Assembly (NCBI RefSeq): GCF_004519295.1
Contig: NZ_SOZH01000008.1
Location: forward strand, 1-64,000
Length of the DNA: 64,000 nucleotides
Direction of reading: 5' to 3'
Origin: Cellulosimicrobium funkei
GTDB taxonomy: Bacteria; Actinomycetota; Actinomycetes; Actinomycetales; Cellulomonadaceae
Shown here: positions 54,279-64,000 of the stretch, one piece after another
Numbering within the stretch: position 1 is the stretch's first letter
Layout of the letters: every line of letters starts with the position of its first letter
Notes under the pieces: model-generated
The model's input: the letters and a program-made list of their open reading frames with translations, nothing else
Database searches by the model: none
What the model was told of the DNA's origin: nothing
Made by a program: the position numbers and the translations under genes

Positions 54279-56855
54279 TCAGGCGCAGTCGAGCGCGTCG
54301 ACCGCCGCCTCGCGCGTGGCCGTCACCTCCCGGCCGTCGAGGGTCGCCACGCCGGTCACCGCGACCGTGCCCGCCGGGACCGCCGTCGTGCGGGCGGCGA
54401 ACGACTGGTACGCGTTCTTCCCCGGCGCGACGTCGGCGACCGTCTTCTCCCCGTACGGCGTCGTGAGCGTCAGCGTGACGGGGACGTCCTCCCCGTTCGT
54501 CGCGCGGACCGCGACGTACGCCTTGCCCGCGAGGCAGCGCGGCGCGACCTCGACCGCGAGGTCGAGCTCGGGCGCCGGCGGCTGCTCGCCGTACGCCGCG
54601 AGGAGCGCGGCGTGCTCGGCGGCCGTGATCGGCAGCACGGTGCCGTGGCGCGGGCTGCTCGGCAGGTGCGCGTCGACCGACGTCCACACGCCCGAGTCGA
54701 GGTCGGTGGACTCGAGCGGCAGGTAGCCCTGGCCGCCGTGGTAGCTCGGCTGGTCGACGAAGAGGTACCACTTCTCCTCGGTGTTCGACCTGAAGACGGT
54801 CGGCCCCTCGCCCGCGGTGAGCATGCCGCCCCACGGGTTGGGCTGGCCGTAGCCGATCTTCTCGGCGACGAGGTCCCACTCGGTCGAGCGCAGGTCCGTC
54901 GACTTCTCGAGGCGCGGGATCATGTACGCCTCGTCCTTGGTGAACCGGTAGTACGTGCCGTCGTGCTCGACGATCGACGAGTCGATCATCCCCAGCCCGT
55001 TGCCGCGCTTCTCGTCGATCCACACCTGCGGCTCGGAGAACGTCACGAAGTCGCGCGTCGTGGCGTACATCATGCGCTGGTAGGAGTCGGCGATGCGGCG
55101 GCCGTCGGTCGACGTCGTCGGGTAGAGCGCCGAGGCCCAGTAGACGATGTACTCGCCGCGCTGCGCGTCCCAGAACGCCTCGGGCGCCCACGTGTTGCCC
55201 GCGTACGCGCTCGACACCGTGACCATGCGCTGGTCGGACCAGTGCACGAGGTCGGTCGACTCCCAGATCATCAGCGCGCGCGACCCGCGTTCCTGCGCGT
55301 TGCCGAAGTCGTTGCCGCCGTAGATGCGCAGGTCGGTCGCGAGGAGGAAGAACCGGTCGCCCTCGGGCGAGCGGATGATGAACGGGTCGCGCAGGCCCTT
55401 CTCGCCGAGCGTCGACGTGAGCACGGGCTCGCCGTCGTTGAGCTCGACCCAGTCGAGCGGGTCGTTCCCGTTGCTCGCGCTGAAGTAGACCGACTCGCCG
55501 TCCGCGGTGCTCTCGCCCTCGAAGTACGGGAAGAAGTAGCCCTCGTAGTCGGCCGCGGCGGGCAGCGGGCGGACCGTCGCGTCGTAGGTGTGCGTCGCGG
55601 TCGCACCGTCCTTCGTCGCCGTGACGGTGAGCCGCACGACGGCGGCCGGCTCGCCGTGGGCGGGCCGCGTCACCTCGCCCGTGGCCGAGACGGCCGAGGG
55701 GTCGGAGCTCTCCCACGTGAGGGCGGAGCCGTTGGCCCCCTCCGCGGGCAGCGTGAGGTTGCCGCGCACGTCGTCGAGGTGCGGCACGACGACGTGGCTC
55801 GCGTCCCACGCCACGGCCTCGGCGGGCGCGAGGTGGGCCAGGACCGTGACGTCGATCTGCGCGGTGCGCGCGACCGCGCCGCGCGTGACGAGGGCCGTGA
55901 GGGTCACGGTCGCGTCGTCCTCGCCCGCGGCGGGCCGGGTGACCTTCCCCGTGGCGCTGACGACGCCCGCGTCCGACGACGTCCACGTGACGATCGAGCC
56001 CTGCGCCCCCGTGGTGGGCAGCACGAGGTCCGCGGTGACGGCGCTCGTGTCGCCGAGGTCGAGCGCGGCGAGGTCGGCGTCCGCGGCGGCCGTGGAGGTC
56101 CGGGCCGCGAGCTCGGCCGCCTCGGCCGGGCTCAGCGCACGGTCGTAGAGGCGGAAGTCGCGCACCTGGCCCTTGAGGTAGCGGTCGCCGGAGTAGAGCG
56201 AGCGGCCGACGTAGTTCGCGGTCGTCTGCCCGCCGCCGATCTGGCCCGGGTCGGTCGTGACGTTCGTGGCCTGCTTGACCTGCACGCCGTCCTCGTAGAG
56301 CGTCGCCGTCGTGCCGGAGAGCGTGTACGTGAGGGTCTTCCAGACGCCGCGCTGGAGGTTCGCGCCCTTGGTGACGGTCTGCTCGGTGGTCCAGCTCCCG
56401 GTCGCGATCGACGTGCGGTACGCGTTGCCGGTCGTGAACAGGTAACCGTTGCCGTTCGACCCGCTCGTGTTGCCGAGCCCGTAGACGAAGTACGGCGTGC
56501 CCTGGTCCTGGCTCACGAGCACGTCGAGGCTCACGGTGGCGTCCGTGAGGCCCGCGAGCAGGTGGTCGGGCAGGTCGACATAGTCGTCGGTCCCGTCGAG
56601 CGTCGTGCCGTCGGCCGTCGCCGTGCCGCCCACCACCGTGGCCGGGCCGAACGTCGAGCCCTCGGCGCGGTTCGCCGTCGTGCCGCCGGTCGTGCTCGCG
56701 GCGTCGAGCGGGTACCACGCGACGAGACCGTCGTCGGTGGGGCCGCCGACGTCGGCCGCGGCCGGCGCCGCGACGGCGGCGGCGAGCGTGGAGACGGCGA
56801 GCGCCCCCACCAGCCCGGCGGCGAGCGCCGAGCGTGCTCGGTGTATGGAAATCAT
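54279..56855 (-). CDS. Secreted GH43-family arabinanase-like protein with LamG and Ig modules (858 aa)
   Basis: Domain order: signal peptide (about 1-34), LamG/concanavalin-like domain (40-245), two atrophied bacterial Ig domains (255-340 and 350-430), a GH43 five-bladed propeller (440-745), and a C-terminal domain (763-857) with Cys774 and Cys857. The GH43 acids appear as Asp490 (RDPFII), Asp625 (MIDSSIV) and Glu683 (EGPTVF). Such enzymes release arabinose or xylose from plant polysaccharides outside the cell; exact substrate unknown. AGAGGA precedes the ATG by 5 nt. The LamG domain is nearly identical to one in the neighbouring 1645-residue protein. Confidence 0.9.
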   Translation of the reverse strand: MISIHRARSALAAGLVGALAVSTLAAAVAAPAAADVGGPTDDGLVAWYPLDAASTTGGTTANRAEGSTFGPATVVGGTATADGTTLDGTDDYVDLPDHLLAGLTDATVSLDVLVSQDQGTPYFVYGLGNTSGSNGNGYLFTTGNAYRTSIATGSWTTEQTVTKGANLQRGVWKTLTYTLSGTTATLYEDGVQVKQATNVTTDPGQIGGGQTTANYVGRSLYSGDRYLKGQVRDFRLYDRALSPAEAAELAARTSTAAADADLAALDLGDTSAVTADLVLPTTGAQGSIVTWTSSDAGVVSATGKVTRPAAGEDDATVTLTALVTRGAVARTAQIDVTVLAHLAPAEAVAWDASHVVVPHLDDVRGNLTLPAEGANGSALTWESSDPSAVSATGEVTRPAHGEPAAVVRLTVTATKDGATATHTYDATVRPLPAAADYEGYFFPYFEGESTADGESVYFSASNGNDPLDWVELNDGEPVLTSTLGEKGLRDPFIIRSPEGDRFFLLATDLRIYGGNDFGNAQERGSRALMIWESTDLVHWSDQRMVTVSSAYAGNTWAPEAFWDAQRGEYIVYWASALYPTTSTDGRRIADSYQRMMYATTRDFVTFSEPQVWIDEKRGNGLGMIDSSIVEHDGTYYRFTKDEAYMIPRLEKSTDLRSTEWDLVAEKIGYGQPNPWGGMLTAGEGPTVFRSNTEEKWYLFVDQPSYHGGQGYLPLESTDLDSGVWTSVDAHLPSSPRHGTVLPITAAEHAALLAAYGEQPPAPELDLAVEVAPRCLAGKAYVAVRATNGEDVPVTLTLTTPYGEKTVADVAPGKNAYQSFAARTTAVPAGTVAVTGVATLDGREVTATREAAVDALDCA

Positions 56856-56977: not shown

Positions 56978-59900
56978 TCAGCCGCAGGGGTGGGCGTCGT
57001 AGGCGATGTCGTAGGGCGTGGTGACCGGGGTGCTGTCGAGCACGGCCGTGCCGGTGACCGTCAGGGTGCCCGCCTGGACCGACGTCGCCCTCGTCGCGAA
57101 CGACTGGTAGGCGTTCGCGCCCGGGGCGACGCCCGCGAACGTCCTCGTGCCGTACGGGGTCGTGAGGGTGACGTCGGCGGGCACGACGCCCGCGTTCGTC
57201 GCCCGCACCGCGACGTAGACCTTGCCCGCGAGGCACCGCGGGGTGGCCTCGACGGTCAGCTCGACCCGGGGCGCGGGGGCGACGTCGACCGGGTCCACGC
57301 TCTCGAGCGTCGGCACGACCTTCTGGATGAGGCCGTCCTCGCCGAACGTGAGGCGGTCGATCGTCGTCTCGCGGTGGGTCCCGTCGCCGCCGGGGATGGC
57401 GAACCGGTGGTACGCGATGTACCAGTCGTCCGTGCCCTCGACGTTGAGGATCGAGCTGTGCCCGGTCCCGAGGATGCCCTGCGAGGCGTCCTTCTCGAGG
57501 ATCACGCCGCGGTACGTCCACGGGCCGTCGATGCTGTCCGACGTCGCGTAGCCGACGCGGTAGCTCTCCGAGCCCGTGTCGTCGATCGAGTACGTGAGGT
57601 GGTAGACGCCGTCGCGGTAGTTGAGGAACAGGCCCTCGCGGAAGTCGGTCAGGCCGGGGATGCGCCGCAGCGTGTCCTGCTTGATCGACGTCATGTCGTC
57701 GTCCAGCTCCGCCATGACCGGGCCGTTCGACGGCCCGCCGTTGCCCCACAGCAGCCAGTACTTCCCGGTCTCCGGGTCGCGGAACGCGGCCGGGTCGATG
57801 GCCTGGCCGGACGTGACCACCTCGCCGTTGGTGATCATCGCCGTCGGCTGCGCGGTGAACGGTCCCTCGGGGCTGTCGGCCACCGCGACGCCGATCGTCT
57901 TGCGGTCGTACGTCGGGTTGTGGCCGGAGAAGTAGAACCAGTACCTCCCGTCCCGCTCGATGATCGTCGGCGCCCACGCGTTGCCGGTCGCCCACGGGAC
58001 GTTCCCGTTCGCGCCGTCGAGCGTGAGGAACGGCTGCTCCGAGCGCTCCCACGTCACGAGGTCGGTGGACTTCCAGACGTAGAAGTCCTTGCCGCCCCAG
58101 CCCGGCGTGCCGTCGGTCGTGGCGTAGAGGTAGAACGTGTCGCCGAACTGCGCGATGTTCGGGTCGGCGTACGTCCCGGGGAGTACCGGGCTGCCCATCT
58201 GCTTGGCCTGGACCGTCCACGTGCGCGACGACCCGTCCGGCCCGGTCACGGTGTACTCCACGGGCTGCGTGAGGTCCTGCACCGAGCCGTTCCCGGGCGT
58301 GACGGTCGCGCGCGGCGAGACCGTGAGGACCGGCGCGAGCGCGGAGACGTCCGTGCCCGGCACGACGGCGAGCGTCACGGTCGAGCTCGCCCGGTCGACG
58401 ATCGCGGGGACCTTGAGCGCGTCGAGCTCGGCGCCCGTGACGGCCGTGTGGTCCGCCCCGACCTGGTAGACCTCGTCGGCCGTGAGCGCACGGTCGTAGA
58501 CCCGGAAGTCGCGCACCGAGCCCTTGAGGTAGCGGTCGCCCGAGTACAGGGAGCGGCCGATGTAGTTGGCGAGCGTCGAGCCGTTCCCGATGTCCTTCGG
58601 GTCGATGGTGACGCCGGTCTGGCGGCCCACCTCGACGCCGTCCTCGTAGAGCACGGCCGTCGTGCCGGACAGGGTGTACGTGAGGTGCTTCCACACCCCG
58701 CGCTGGAGGTTCGCGTTCTTCGTGACGGTCTGCTCGGTGGTCCAGTTCCCCGTCGCGATCGACGTGCGGTACGCGTTGCCCGTGGTGAACAGGTACCCGT
58801 CGCCCGCCGTGCCGCTCGTGTTGCCGAGGCCGTAGACGAAGTACGGCGTCGCCTGGTCCGTCGCGACCTTGACGTCGAGCGCGACCGTGACGTCGGTGAG
58901 CCCGGCGAGCAGGTGGTCGGGCAGGTCGACGTAGTCGTCCGTCCCGTCGAGCCGGACGCCCTCCCCGGTGCCGGAGAAGGCCGCGCCGTTGGTCAGCGTC
59001 GCCGGGCCGAACGACGACCCGGGCGCGGTGTTCGCCGCCGCCGTGCCGCTCGTCTCGTCGAACGCGTACCGCACCACGAGGCCCGGCACGTCGGCCGTCA
59101 CCTCGACCGCCACGTACGCGGTGCGCGACCCGTCGGCGGTCGTCGCCGTGACGAGCGCGTGGCCCTCGCCGACACCCGTCACGACGCCGTCGGCCGAGAC
59201 CGCGGCGACGTCCGCGTCGTCCGACGCCCACGTGATCGCGCGCGCCGTCGCGTTCGCGGGCGTGACGGTCGCGGTGAGCTGCCGCGTGCCGCCGACGCCC
59301 ACCTCGAGCGACTCGGGGGTGACGCTGAGGCCCTCGACGGGGACGACGTCGTCGGTCACGGTGACGACCGCGCGGGCGCGGACGCTCACCCCGCCGCCGA
59401 GCGTGCCCAGCACCTCGAACGAGCCCGCCTGCGCGTACGACGCCGGGTCGACCGCGTCCCACGTGACATCCGCCGAGCCCGTGGAGCCGTCGGCGAAGCG
59501 CGCCGTGACGCTCGCGGGCAGCACCGGCGCGGAGCCGGTCTGGACGGTCACGGCGACGTCCTCGACGGACTCGACGAACGCGTCGGGCTGGTACGTGCGC
59601 AGCAGGCGGTCGTACTCGGCCTGCGTCACGGGGAGCACCGTGCCGTGGCGCGGTCGCGACGGCATCTCGTAGTCGGTGGACATGGTCCACTCGGCCGCGT
59701 CGAGCGAGGTCGACTCGAACGGCACGTAGCCGCGGCCGCCGAACTCGTCGATGAAGAGGTACCACTTCTCCTCGGTGTTCGACTTGAAGATCGTCGGGCC
59801 CTCGCCCTGGTTGATCCCGCCGCCGAGCGAGTTCGCCTTGCCGATGCAGTCGGTGATGAAGTCGTAGTCCGTCGAGCGCAGCTCGGCCGCCTTCTCCGCG

Positions 59901-61915
59901 AGGATGAACTTGGAGCACGGCGTGGACGACGTGTTGTTCCGCTCGTCCTTGGTGAACCGGTAGTACTGGCCGTCGTGCTGCGTCACGGTCGAGTCGATGA
60001 CCGAGTAGCCCGGGTCGACCCACACCTGCGCCTCGCTGAACGTCACGAAGTCGCGCGTCGTGGCGTACATCATCCGGTTGTAGGTGTTGCCGGTGTGGTC
60101 CGGGTCGTCCTCCGCGTAGAGCTTCGAGGCCCAGAACACGACGTACGCGCCGATCGTCTCGTCGTAGTACGCCTCCGGCGCCCACGTGTTGCCCGCGGTG
60201 TCGGGCGAGACCTGCACGAGGCGCTGGTCGGTCCAGTTCACGAGGTCCGTGGACTCCCACACCATGATCGACTTCGAGCCGGTGCGCTGGGACGCGTCCC
60301 AGTTCCCGTTGCCGTAGATCTTGAGGTCGGTGGCGATCTGGTAGAACTTGTCGCCCTCGGGCGAGCGGATGACGAACGGGTCCCGCAGGCCCTTCTCCCC
60401 CAGCTCCGACGTGAGGACGGGCTGGTTGTCGTTGAGGTTCTGGTACTTCAGCGGGTCGTTGCCCTGGCTGAGCCCGAAGTAGACCTGCTCGCCCGTGGCG
60501 GTGCCCTCGCCCACGAAGTAGGAGAACAGGTAGCCCGCGAGGTCCTCCTGCTCGGGCAGCGGCGGCACGTGCGCCGCGAGCTCGCGCGTGGCGGTGGCCG
60601 CGCCGACCGTCACCGTCGCGGTGAGGGCCACGGTCTCGGCGTCCTCGCCGTGCGCCGGGCGCGTCACCTCGCCCGTCGGGGTGATCGTGCCCGACGACGA
60701 CTCCCACGTCACGCTCGCGCCGTGCAGCCCCGTGGTGGGCAGCGTGAGGTTGCCGCGCACGTCGTCGAGGTTCGTCACCTCGAGCGCGGCGGCCGCGGCG
60801 TCGGCCTTCGCCTGGTGGCCGTCGCCCGGCAGGACCGTGACGTCGAACGTGCGGGTCGCGGTCGCGCCGCGCAACGTCACCGTGGCGGTGAGCGTCGCGG
60901 TCGCCGGCTCGTCGCCCGCGGGGCGCGTCACCGCGCCGCTCGCCGAGACGACGCCCGCGTCGGAGCTCGACCACGCGACGGCGGAGCCACCGACGCCCTT
61001 CGCGGGGAGCACGAGGTCCGTGCCGACGGCGCTCGTGTCGCCCAGGTCGAGCGCGGCGGCGTCGGCCGTGACGGCGTCCTGCGCGGCGTCCGACGCGAGG
61101 TCGGCGACCTCCTGCGCGGTGAGCGCGCGGTCGTAGAGCCGGAAGTCCTTCATGCGCCCCTTGAAGAGGTTGTCGGCGGCGTAGGCCGACTTCCCGAGCG
61201 CGTTCGCGGTCGTGGTGCCGCCGCCGATCGCGCCGGGCGTGATCGTCACCGCGGTGTTCTGCCCGACCTGGGTGCCGTCCTCGTACAGCCGCGCCGTGCC
61301 GCCCGCGAGCGTGTAGGTGACGGTCTTCCACACGCCCCGCTGGAGGGCGCCCGCGGGGGTCTTGGCCGTGTTCTGCTCGCGGCCCCACGCGAGGTCGGAG
61401 ATCGTCGCGCGGTAGTTCGCGTTGCCCGTCGAGAACAGGTAGCCGTTCCCGGACTGCGGGGTGCCGACCGCCGGGTTGCCGAGGGTGTAGAAGAAGTAGT
61501 TGCCGCTCAGCGACGTGTCGACCCACACGTCCGCGCTCACCGTCACGGCGTCGTAGCCGGCCAGGAGGTCGTCGGGCAGGTCCACGTGGTTCGCGCCGCC
61601 GAACGTGAGGCCCTGTCCCGCGCGCCACCCGCCGCCCGTGCCGACGAGCGCGGCGTCGAGGCCGTGGCCCGACGCGTCGTGCGCGACGGTGCCCTCGGTC
61701 TCGTCGAGCGGGAGCCAGAGCCGCAGACCGTCCGTGGTCGGCTCGGCCGCGACGGGGACCGGTGCGGGCGCCGCGGGCATAGGGCCGGCGGCCGCCGCGC
61801 CCACGGGCGCGAGCGGGGCGACGAGCGCGAGGCCGAGCAGCGCCGCGAGCGAGCGGCGTCGGCGTCGGGCGCGGGGCTCCGCGGGCGTCGGGGGTGGTTC
61901 GTGGCGTGAGGTCAT
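56978..61915 (-). CDS. Giant secreted protein with two GH43 catalytic modules (1645 aa)
   Basis: Domain order: signal peptide with RRRRR (about 1-43), LamG-1 (60-275), two atrophied Ig domains (285-361, 365-450), GH43-1 (455-770; Asp512, Asp641, Glu705), Ig-like Big_4-type domain (785-855), BIG2 domain (858-940), LamG-2 (945-1158), a beta linker domain (1160-1240), GH43-2 (1243-1545; Asp1251, Asp1374, Glu1427), and the shared C-terminal domain (1550-1645; Cys1561, Cys1644). GH43-1 resembles the module of the 858-residue protein; GH43-2 belongs to a different subfamily (YADPNI, AIDPAAF, FREGLF). GAGGAG lies 6 nt before the ATG at 61915. It likely attacks arabinan or arabinoxylan with two specificities. 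Confidence 0.92.
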   Translation of the reverse strand: MTSRHEPPPTPAEPRARRRRRSLAALLGLALVAPLAPVGAAAAGPMPAAPAPVPVAAEPTTDGLRLWLPLDETEGTVAHDASGHGLDAALVGTGGGWRAGQGLTFGGANHVDLPDDLLAGYDAVTVSADVWVDTSLSGNYFFYTLGNPAVGTPQSGNGYLFSTGNANYRATISDLAWGREQNTAKTPAGALQRGVWKTVTYTLAGGTARLYEDGTQVGQNTAVTITPGAIGGGTTTANALGKSAYAADNLFKGRMKDFRLYDRALTAQEVADLASDAAQDAVTADAAALDLGDTSAVGTDLVLPAKGVGGSAVAWSSSDAGVVSASGAVTRPAGDEPATATLTATVTLRGATATRTFDVTVLPGDGHQAKADAAAAALEVTNLDDVRGNLTLPTTGLHGASVTWESSSGTITPTGEVTRPAHGEDAETVALTATVTVGAATATRELAAHVPPLPEQEDLAGYLFSYFVGEGTATGEQVYFGLSQGNDPLKYQNLNDNQPVLTSELGEKGLRDPFVIRSPEGDKFYQIATDLKIYGNGNWDASQRTGSKSIMVWESTDLVNWTDQRLVQVSPDTAGNTWAPEAYYDETIGAYVVFWASKLYAEDDPDHTGNTYNRMMYATTRDFVTFSEAQVWVDPGYSVIDSTVTQHDGQYYRFTKDERNNTSSTPCSKFILAEKAAELRSTDYDFITDCIGKANSLGGGINQGEGPTIFKSNTEEKWYLFIDEFGGRGYVPFESTSLDAAEWTMSTDYEMPSRPRHGTVLPVTQAEYDRLLRTYQPDAFVESVEDVAVTVQTGSAPVLPASVTARFADGSTGSADVTWDAVDPASYAQAGSFEVLGTLGGGVSVRARAVVTVTDDVVPVEGLSVTPESLEVGVGGTRQLTATVTPANATARAITWASDDADVAAVSADGVVTGVGEGHALVTATTADGSRTAYVAVEVTADVPGLVVRYAFDETSGTAAANTAPGSSFGPATLTNGAAFSGTGEGVRLDGTDDYVDLPDHLLAGLTDVTVALDVKVATDQATPYFVYGLGNTSGTAGDGYLFTTGNAYRTSIATGNWTTEQTVTKNANLQRGVWKHLTYTLSGTTAVLYEDGVEVGRQTGVTIDPKDIGNGSTLANYIGRSLYSGDRYLKGSVRDFRVYDRALTADEVYQVGADHTAVTGAELDALKVPAIVDRASSTVTLAVVPGTDVSALAPVLTVSPRATVTPGNGSVQDLTQPVEYTVTGPDGSSRTWTVQAKQMGSPVLPGTYADPNIAQFGDTFYLYATTDGTPGWGGKDFYVWKSTDLVTWERSEQPFLTLDGANGNVPWATGNAWAPTIIERDGRYWFYFSGHNPTYDRKTIGVAVADSPEGPFTAQPTAMITNGEVVTSGQAIDPAAFRDPETGKYWLLWGNGGPSNGPVMAELDDDMTSIKQDTLRRIPGLTDFREGLFLNYRDGVYHLTYSIDDTGSESYRVGYATSDSIDGPWTYRGVILEKDASQGILGTGHSSILNVEGTDDWYIAYHRFAIPGGDGTHRETTIDRLTFGEDGLIQKVVPTLESVDPVDVAPAPRVELTVEATPRCLAGKVYVAVRATNAGVVPADVTLTTPYGTRTFAGVAPGANAYQSFATRATSVQAGTLTVTGTAVLDSTPVTTPYDIAYDAHPCG

Positions 61916-61978: not shown

Positions 61979-62006
61979 TGTGAACGCTAACATGTGAACG
62001 CAAACA
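61979..62006 (-). promoter_or_regulatory. Tandem LacI-like operator sites
   Basis: TGTGAACGCTAACA (61979-61992) is followed directly by TGTGAACGCAAACA (61993-62006). Each resembles the palindromic LacI-family operator TGTTAGCGCTAACA used by sugar-responsive actinobacterial repressors. They lie 64-91 bp upstream of the giant GH43 gene. A weaker dyad CGACA-ACGA-TGTCG lies near 62027-62040. Confidence 0.6.
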
Positions 62007-62074
62007 TGCCTAGGGACCCCGGGACCGACAACGATGTCGAAAAGCGCGTGAGGGCTCCCGGGCGCCCCCGGACG

Positions 62075-62139: not shown

Positions 62140-64000
62140 TCAGCCGCAGGACAGGTCGCCGTAGGCGGCCTCGTGCGCCGTCTCGACCGTGGCGCCGTCG
62201 AGCACCGCGGTGCCCGTGGCGGTCGCGACCCCGGCCGCGAGCGACGCGGACCGTGTGGCGAACGACTGGTACGCGTTCGCCCCCGGTGCCACGTCACGCA
62301 CGACCCGCGTGCCGAACGGGGTGACGAGCTCGACGTCGGCCGCGACGTCGGCGAGGTTGGTCGCGCGCACCGCCACGTAGGCCTTGCCCGCGAGGCAGCG
62401 TGCGGAGGCGGTCACGTCGAGCTCGACGGCCGGGCCCGCGGCGTCGGCCGCGAACTCCCACGTGTCCACCTCGACGAGGTCGACGCCCGCGGGGCCGGCG
62501 AACGTGAAGTACACGTCGTGGACGCCGCTCACGCCCTCCAGTGCAGCGGTCACGTCCGCCCACTCGCCCACGAGGGTGTCGAGGTCGAGCGTGCCGACGA
62601 CGGCACCCTCGCGGTCGTCGAGGCGCACCTCGACGGTGGCGCCCTCGACGAGCGGCTTGACGCGCGCCGTGACGCTCGCGGCACCGTCGCCGAAGTCGAC
62701 CGACGACAGCGCCGACCAGTCGCCGGCGTCGACGTCGCGGACGACGAGGTTCGGCGCCTGGTCGCCGAACTGTGCCGAGCCGCCGTCGACCTTCGCGGTG
62801 GTGAGGCCCTGCTGCCACGCGAACGTCTCCGCCTCGAGCACCTGGAACGGGTCGAGGTCCTTGACCTGGTCCACGCCCGCGTAGTCGCCGACGACCTGCT
62901 GGACCGTGCCGTCCGCGTTGAACGTCAGCTCCTGGATGTGCGGGCTGCGGTAGCCCTGCGTGGTGCTGCCGTTGATGCGCTTGTTGAGCGTGGGCGCGTG
63001 GTACGTGAAGTAGTACCTGCCGTCCAGCTCGAACACCGACTGGTGGTTGTTGCCGCCCGTGCCCGCGCCGAAGAACTGCGACTGGTTCGGGAACATCACG
63101 CCGGCGTACGTCTCCTTGGGGAACGACATCGGGTCGTCGGAGATCATGTAGCCGATCTGCCCGCCGCCCGGGTACCCCGGGAGCGTGGCCTGGTTGCCGC
63201 CGAAGTCGTTGCCGCCGAAGTGCGACGAGTACGACAGGTAGTACTTCCCGTCGCGCTCGAAGACCTGCGCCGCCTCGAACGCCACGGGCGCGTCCACGAC
63301 GGCCGCCGTGCCCTGCGTGGAGACCATGTCGTCGCCGAGCTCGATGACGCGGATGTTCTTCGGGTTGTTGAACCGCTCCGCCGCGGGCATCGACGTCGAC
63401 GCCGGGCCGCCGCCGAAGTAGAGGTACGCCCCGTCGTCGGTGACGAGCGGCGCCGGGTCGAACTTCCAGGCCACGGCCTCGGCGCCCGGGGTGCGCCCGT
63501 CGATGAGCGTGCTGTCGCGCTCGCTCGTCCACGGCCCGAGCGGCGAGGCGCCCGTGATGACGTTCGACGACCCGCCGCCGTTGGCGTAGTAGAGGAAGTA
63601 CTTGTCGACGCCGTCGACCGTCTTCTTCGCCATGCCCGGCGCCCACGAGTTGTTGGTGAAGGGCGCGACGCCCTGCGGCCCCGCGACCTGGATCTCGCCG
63701 TGGTCCGTCCAGTTCACGAGGTCCTCGGACGAGATGAGCGTGATCTGGTTGATGCTGCCGTAGTTGATCTGCGGCGAGACGCCCGTCACCGGGTCGGGCG
63801 CGTAGCCCTGGGTGTCGTTCGTCATGTACATGTACACGCGCCCGTCCTCGACGAACCCGAACCCGTCGGCCCCGAACTTGTGGGAGATGAGCGGGTTGTG
63901 CTCGCCGGGCAGCTTGCCGAGCACCTCGATCGTCTTCGAGGGTGGTCCGGGCGGGGCCGCGCCGACGACGGAGACGTCGTCGAGCACGAAGTCCATGAGG
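62140..64000 (-). CDS. Secreted GH43-family arabinoxylan-active enzyme, C-terminal part (cut by window edge)
   Basis: About 620 residues are visible and the frame continues past the right edge. The first residues (DFVLDDVSVVG) are the end of a CBM4_9-type carbohydrate-binding module. A GH43 domain follows (about 20-385), starting NPLISHKFGADGF and typical of arabinoxylan arabinofuranohydrolases, then a CBM6 module (about 387-520; VLEAETFAW at its start), then the same two-cysteine C-terminal domain as its neighbours. Start codon, signal peptide and N-terminal modules lie outside the window. Confidence 0.9.
   Translation of the reverse strand, partial: LMDFVLDDVSVVGAAPPGPPSKTIEVLGKLPGEHNPLISHKFGADGFGFVEDGRVYMYMTNDTQGYAPDPVTGVSPQINYGSINQITLISSEDLVNWTDHGEIQVAGPQGVAPFTNNSWAPGMAKKTVDGVDKYFLYYANGGGSSNVITGASPLGPWTSERDSTLIDGRTPGAEAVAWKFDPAPLVTDDGAYLYFGGGPASTSMPAAERFNNPKNIRVIELGDDMVSTQGTAAVVDAPVAFEAAQVFERDGKYYLSYSSHFGGNDFGGNQATLPGYPGGGQIGYMISDDPMSFPKETYAGVMFPNQSQFFGAGTGGNNHQSVFELDGRYYFTYHAPTLNKRINGSTTQGYRSPHIQELTFNADGTVQQVVGDYAGVDQVKDLDPFQVLEAETFAWQQGLTTAKVDGGSAQFGDQAPNLVVRDVDAGDWSALSSVDFGDGAASVTARVKPLVEGATVEVRLDDREGAVVGTLDLDTLVGEWADVTAALEGVSGVHDVYFTFAGPAGVDLVEVDTWEFAADAAGPAVELDVTASARCLAGKAYVAVRATNLADVAADVELVTPFGTRVVRDVAPGANAYQSFATRSASLAAGVATATGTAVLDGATVETAHEAAYGDLSCG

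Follow-up and report, generated by a model that had tools for sequence, protein, structure and literature searches.

In the window (the whole stretch of DNA analysed here, 64,000 nucleotides), the gene under study, P0001, lies on the minus strand between a further GH43 gene upstream and a shorter paralogue, P0002, downstream (Table 1). Its frame gives a 1645-residue translation with no internal stop, and the GC content of third codon positions is 0.95-1.00 in all eight 200-codon windows that cover residues 1-1600, the linker included. Thus, the proposal of the initial annotation that a single protein of this length is encoded holds. The longest form of the frame opens at an ATG at 61993; since this codon sits within an operator-like repeat and a GAGGAG lies just ahead of the ATG at 61915, the latter was preferred as the start.

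Table 1. Features of the P0001 locus (positions in the window; aa, amino acids).
Feature	Position	Strand	Basis or remark
Paralogue P0002: LamG, two aBig_2, GH43_22-like module, common C-terminal domain	54279..56855	-	Profile matches
Bimodular GH43 gene P0001, 1645 aa	56978..61915	-	Translation; GAGGAG precedes ATG 61915
C-terminal Ig-like domain with no Pfam or NCBIfam family, residues 1546-1645	56981..57280	-	Genome matches, structure model
GH43 module b, GH43_34, residues 1241-1540 (D1251, D1374, E1427)	57296..58195	-	PF04616, 3qz4
DUF5018-like linker, residues 1159-1237	58205..58441	-	PF16410, 33.6 bits, under cut-off 38.2
LamG domain 2, residues 945-1155	58451..59083	-	Pfam PF13385
Big_2 domain, residues 860-937	59105..59338	-	Pfam PF02368
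Big_4 domain, residues 784-841	59393..59566	-	Pfam PF07532
GH43 module a, GH43_22-like, residues 455-775 (D512, D641, E705)	59591..60553	-	NF052546, PF04616
Two atrophied bacterial Ig domains, aBig_2, residues 276-451	60563..61090	-	Pfam PF20578, two stretches
LamG domain 1, residues 63-272	61100..61729	-	Pfam PF13385, two stretches in protein
Likely signal peptide, residues ~1-43, RRRRRSLAALLGLALVAPLAPVGAAAAG	61787..61915	-	Tat-like by eye
Two head-to-tail LacI-type operator-like sites, ATGTTAGCGTTCACA and ATGTTTGCGTTCACA	61979..62007	-	Sequence motif
Strong hairpin between upstream GH43 gene and P0001	62068..62125	-	Candidate terminator with no T run
Upstream gene, 3' part: GH43, CBM6, common C-terminal domain	62140..63999	-	Whole gene CBM4_9-GH43-CBM6, 804 aa, reaching beyond the window

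Pfam recognises in P0001 two Glyco_hydro_43, two Laminin_G_3, two aBig_2, one Big_4 and one Big_2 domain. The two GH43 modules are distinct, as had been proposed, with a best BLASTP stretch between them of 35% identity over 68 residues, and the Ig-type domains said to part the two halves are the Big_4 and Big_2 domains located between the modules. The view that each module is preceded by its own LamG domain stands as far as the two LamG domains are concerned, but two aBig_2 domains intervene before module a and the DUF5018-like stretch before module b. Inverting GH43 enzymes rely on two Asp residues, one as base and one as pKa modulator, and on a Glu as acid, and both predicted triads can be read in the translation, in agreement with the initial annotation; all six acids are in place and each triad is invariant across the aligned relatives (41 modules a and 29 modules b). 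These observations bear on the possibility that one module alone is catalytically important while the other persists as a relic that serves in binding or as a scaffold. The GH43 sequence of module a is divergent, scoring 42 bits against a Pfam (PF04616) cut-off of 32.2, with no close solved relative, but the invariance of its triad and the reported activity of both modules of the characterised relative BlArafE (PMC8939339) make such a relic quite improbable, and a dead module found no support in the aligned triads.

Module b is a much stronger match to PF04616 (215.8 bits). Among 59 matched PDB sequences its best solved relative was 3qz4 (230 bits; next, 123), which the structure listing names BT_3675 and which aligns with it along the full module, the three acids lining up. 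The closest CHARACTERISED protein is BlArafE (BLLJ_1850) of Bifidobacterium longum JCM 1217. We recovered a sequence for it from one of the Bifidobacteriaceae-like genomes searched, as an ORF of 1664 residues (L186:2914-7908:-) with Asp at position 571 (in VIDTTM), Asp at position 1197 (in GQAIDPSIF) and a hydrophobic tail at residues 1637-1659, and it was identified as BlArafE because these features agree with the description in PMC8939339. When it is aligned with P0001, its Asp571 falls on Asp641 and its Asp1197 on Asp1374; its identity to P0001 is 36-37% in module a and 48% in module b, and the best solved relative of its own module b is again BT_3675 (228 bits). Since BT_3675, listed among the characterised GH43_34 proteins (PMC8939339), and BlArafE are the closest characterised members, module b is assigned by sequence to GH43_34. 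Module a was taken as GH43_22-like from its identity to the GH43_22 module of BlArafE and from a match to NCBIfam NF052546 (BAD_1527 alpha-arabinofuranosidase) that spans positions 3-336 of 341 and, with 211.6 bits, stays under the cut-off of 500. BAD_1527 is a GH43_22 enzyme of the AXH-m type and, according to PMC11264647, no GH43_22 structure had been solved as of 2024. In a comparison with 2026 PDB sequences, module a gave no clear match, its best being at chance level (E 0.12), and the BlArafE GH43_22 module gave none. As regards the five-bladed beta-propeller of GH43, a structure model of module a built from the 41 aligned modules (pLDDT 93) has propeller enzymes of GH159, GH43 and GH62 as its nearest folds in Foldseek (E 5e-11), at a TM score of only ~0.5. 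Given the identity of 36% and the NF052546 score below cut-off, the linkage preference of module a may differ from that of its BlArafE counterpart.

P0001 belongs to a cluster encoded on one strand, which comprises, upstream first, genes for a LacI-family regulator, an FGGY kinase, a class II aldolase, an L-arabinose isomerase (789 bits, cut-off 622), a sugar-binding protein, an ABC ATPase, two permeases, GH51, GH127, a GH43 protein with GH43_C2, the CBM4_9-GH43-CBM6 protein, P0001, and the LamG-aBig-aBig-GH43 paralogue P0002; there are thus three GH43 genes besides P0001, and in P0002 the three motifs with the catalytic acids are present. From this arabinose gene content, the substrate of P0001 is very likely an arabinose-rich glycan. 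The importer is predicted to be of a furanose type: its binding protein is nearest to the YtfQ model (353.8 bits, cut-off 510), and its ATPase scores 617.4 bits against YtfR (cut-off 850), both models describing a galactofuranose importer, and 431 against AraG (cut-off 689). These below-cut-off importer matches, together with the inclusion of beta-D-galactofuranosidases in GH43_34 (PMC8939339), are what could speak for two modules acting on different sugars, with module a releasing alpha-L-arabinofuranose and module b beta-D-galactofuranose in a mixed-furanoside debranching. However, the cluster holds the L-arabinose isomerase, FGGY kinase, class II aldolase, GH51 and GH127 genes, and both BT_3675 and module b of BlArafE are arabinofuranosidases (PMC8939339); we therefore consider a galactofuranose-releasing module b unlikely.

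The control region ahead of P0001 contains the motif ATGTTNGCGNTMACA twice. As an exact pattern, this motif was counted four times across 4.38 Mb of genome, each time on the window's contig and within 24 kb, and its reversed control not once; the remaining two sites are at C18 81526-81540, preceding the binding-protein gene, and at 85742-85756, in the 5'-terminal part of the called kinase frame, ahead of its first Pfam match. A LacI gene lies at C18:86721-86855, and related motifs precede GH51. Among 18 fused-gene loci, ten (some of them close relatives) carry TGTKWGCGYTMACA in the orientation of the gene, at -81 to +157 relative to the most upstream start of the frame, and eight carry none in that interval; on both strands of 171,627 bases it matched 19 times, a palindromic site being counted twice, and not once in any of 20 first-order Markov resamplings. 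We infer that the LacI-type regulator probably controls P0001 through the two upstream sites; in bifidobacteria, LacI-family regulators are proposed to control genes for arabinose and arabino-oligosaccharides (PMC5928203). The hairpin that precedes P0001 has a predicted RNA fold of -42 kcal/mol (z -4.4), equalled in stability by one of 200 shuffles; it was missed by the terminator scan, whose single site is on the opposite strand (against a mean of 1.8 in shuffled sequence), and the standard promoter scan returned no sites.

The two-module form is widespread and present in many actinobacteria. Across 221 genomes of the family, module a was matched in at least 101 (E<=1e-30) and module b in 54 (E<=1e-50), and at least 42 genomes encode the pair in a single open frame; within the genus the same-frame pair was present in 15 of 17 genomes, one of the others being free of any match and one having module b split over two frames. 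A species-wide scan found 587 stretches that encode a relative, and 58 of the best 80 carry both modules in one ORF, in every case with a before b; the ranking of these loci went by their similarity to the complete two-module protein, hence 58/80 is not a frequency. One-ORF pairs among these best 80 come, among other genera, from Streptomyces, Nonomuraea, Micromonospora, Kribbella, Nocardioides, Microbacterium, Herbiconiux and Oerskovia, and two Hymenobacter plasmids (Bacteroidota) encode compact proteins (713 and 715 residues), with the modules filling most of the chain. GH43_22 followed by GH43_34 is moreover described as the commonest multi-GH43 combination, with 82 CAZy proteins (PMC8939339). 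The same architecture, which the initial annotation suggested looking for, thus occurs elsewhere, and an unusual character of the protein is not supported: the GH43_22-GH43_34 fusion is already known, and P0001 belongs to those two-module arabinofuranosidases. That two enzymes were fused is right insofar as joining or splitting did occur, since the modules are encoded in adjoining separate frames in at least four of the 221 family genomes (G207, G035, G025 and G036, three of them read directly), but the event could have run in either direction. Such separate adjoining genes are also what a misjoin of two genes by a sequencing or assembly error would call to mind, but given the recurrence of the single frame among relatives, the coding signature unbroken through the linker and the presence of the linker domains in the window-type relatives compared, we regard this as hardly credible and reject it. 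A viral carrier of the gene was likewise rejected, since none of 56 pattern matches among viral contigs, in one scan, encodes a relative. Two module-a-type domains were also observed in one open frame (G182:C1, G010:C6, G178:C1) or in adjacent ORFs (L060). A contig labelled Sphaerisporangium cinnabarinum ATCC 31213 (L082) holds a copy whose modules are 97-99% identical and which groups with Cellulosimicrobium; the label of this contig may be wrong.

Module trees were built from 61 of 81 two-module proteins (the 20 omitted being duplicate loci or further Streptomyces copies), in which we distinguish window-type proteins (group A), Promicromonospora-, Nocardioides- and Microbacteriaceae-type proteins (B), Streptomyces/Nonomuraea long forms (S) and Microbacterium/Rathayibacter proteins (M). 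The two modules gave conflicting histories: A joins S in the module a tree (SH-aLRT 86) and B plus M in the module b tree (33 rows, 99). Constraining A with B in the former carries a penalty of 251.6 log units (AU p 2e-52), and constraining A with S in the latter one of 239.6 (AU p 2e-68), p values that are not blind, since the groups were named after identities and trees had been seen. A more careful analysis of 34 rows, from which long branches had been removed, gave similar results, with penalties of 226.1 (p 1e-87) and 184.3 (p 1e-54), the support for A with S in module a being moderate (90/87); in the best module b tree A alone is not one clade, although an A clade is not rejected (p 0.40). 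Mean identities for the pairs A-B, A-S and A-M are 55.2%, 69.3% and 36.8% in module a and 75.7%, 55.2% and 75.3% in module b. The linker goes with the N-terminal half: Big_4 lies between the modules in all three A and all three S proteins compared and is absent from five B proteins, one M protein and BlArafE, while Big_2 occurs at this place only in A and Nonomuraea among the proteins compared; LamG 2 and the DUF5018-like part are ambiguous. In a quick tree with 28 selected single-module relatives added and five divergent rows removed, single and fused forms are interspersed, the starred branches forcing at least five changes, and the nearest neighbours of A are single-module proteins, a few of them nested within A; S is not its exclusive sister.

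Because the trees conflict both ways (AU p<1e-50), we propose that partners were exchanged between modules. The pattern indicates that one module b lineage has partners from three or more lineages of module a, i.e., that GH43_34 would have been re-paired with different GH43_22 modules, and either half, N- or C-terminal, may have been the one exchanged. A single fusion inherited as a unit is rejected by the module trees, although hidden paralogy could mimic part of the conflict. On a smaller scale, LamG domain 2 of P0001 and the LamG domain of P0002 are 72% identical over 212 residues, pointing to exchange within the cluster. Our literature search for GH43 domain shuffling gave no title on point, though such work may already be in print. 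The conflict offers a natural experiment on which GH43_22/GH43_34 pairings work.

The C-terminal domain of P0001 recurs throughout its own genome, with 38 matches at E<=0.001, the P0001 copy counted; besides this copy, the window holds those at 54282-54575 and 62143-62433, and 35 lie at further places in the genome. The P0001 copy has no Pfam or NCBIfam match, and 30 copies together gave weak Pfam matches to DUF4232 in nine (best E 0.0096) and DUF3869 in three (best E 0.0019), with a best E of 0.0096 against NCBIfam. All 30 copies fetched form the extreme C-terminal end of their proteins, 90-100 residues from the stop; one of the last three residues is a Cys in 28 of them, and a Cys at position 16 is near-invariant. 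A structure model shows seven strands (pLDDT 97.8), with no close fold in the PDB (best E 2e-3) and no clear match among PDB sequences (best E 0.15). All six cluster glycosidases end in this domain, the copy in the GH43 protein with GH43_C2 being devoid of the last Cys. Among ten other carriers, the partners include GH92, a pullulanase C-terminal domain, a metallophosphatase, an M28 peptidase, an alpha/beta hydrolase, a xylose-isomerase-like barrel, a 3-keto-disaccharide-hydrolase-type domain, GH43_C2 and lectin-like domains. Since these partner activities are unrelated, a general role in retention or sorting, though a guess, fits better than substrate-specific binding. In an order-wide sample with up to 12 candidates scored per genome, the domain was found in at least 52 of 396 genomes (E<=1e-6). 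Plasmids of Clavibacter phaseoli (L042 6079-8343) and Cellulosimicrobium protaetiae (L043 4884-7583) encode single-module relatives near sugar ABC importers, and these end in kin of the domain (34% and 60%, respectively). No title on point turned up for the domain in the literature search, and it may still have been published before. What is out of the ordinary at this locus is the evidence for partner exchange together with the common C-terminal domain, a testable candidate for a general surface-retention part in actinobacteria. Tentatively, and with a good deal of doubt, one may imagine that P0001 arose by repeated partner exchange and that the cluster glycosidases are held at the surface or the substrate by a domain common to some 38 proteins.

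Collectively, we favour the interpretation that P0001 encodes a secreted protein of the BlArafE kind, with two alpha-L-arabinofuranosidases on one chain and a predicted sequential removal of branches, to which we assign a probability of about 0.78. The predicted role of either module is to remove branches as an alpha-L-arabinofuranosidase. The LamG domains and Ig-like spacers could hold and position the modules on the glycan. Module a would take one arabinofuranose off the branch point (alpha-1,3-linked in BlArafE), after which module b would take the remaining one (alpha-1,4 in BlArafE), each presumably working with its Asp base, Asp pKa modulator and Glu acid. The freed L-arabinose would be imported by the cluster-encoded ABC importer and would feed the cluster-encoded AraA/AraB/AraD-type enzymes. 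In BlArafE, D571A abolishes the alpha-1,3 arabinofuranosidase step and D1197A the alpha-1,4 step, and the GH43_34 module is active only after trimming (PMC8939339). As the nearest characterised two-module protein, BlArafE acts on the side chains of gum arabic arabinogalactan-protein, and the arabinan or arabinoxylan suggested in the initial annotation is one option only. Placing P0001 beside a characterised relative makes a concrete assay possible.

The comparison with known systems begins with BlArafE, which resembles P0001 in its signal peptide, its LamG and Ig-like domains, the order GH43_22 then GH43_34, and both triads (PMC8939339), as well as in a LamG domain between the modules and in length (1664 versus 1645 residues). 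P0001 carries both modules in one ORF with the GH43_22-like module first, as in the BlArafE kind, the subfamily of module a being assigned from a score under cut-off. Pfam finds in BlArafE two Laminin_G_3 domains (the better one at 791-942, between the modules; the other unlocated), aBig_2, two GH43, Big_3 and FIVAR. The proteins differ between the modules, where P0001 has Big_4 and Big_2, and at the C-terminus, where BlArafE has Big_3, FIVAR and a hydrophobic helix and P0001 instead the Ig-like domain of ~100 residues with no hydrophobic tail. The C-terminal membrane anchor of BlArafE is absent from P0001; we take it as a feature of the B. longum protein and not of the GH43_22-GH43_34 kind. 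BT_3675 of Bacteroides thetaiotaomicron, a GH43_34 enzyme acting on alpha-1,3-Araf of gum arabic AGP (PMC8939339), aligns with the whole of module b but is a single-module protein. BAD_1527 (BaAbf43C), a GH43_22 enzyme of B. adolescentis (PMC11264647), likewise has a single module; module a matches the model named after it, NF052546, and spaces its triad by 129 and 64 residues, compared with 136 and 65 in BAD_1527. The B. longum enzymes AxuA and AxuB, of GH43_16 and GH43_10 (PMC11318964), are not close to P0001. Abf43A-Abf43B-Abf43C of R. josui (GH43_22_26_34), compared here by its description in PMC8939339 alone, shares with P0001 the presence of multiple GH43 modules on one chain with GH43_34 last, but comprises three modules.
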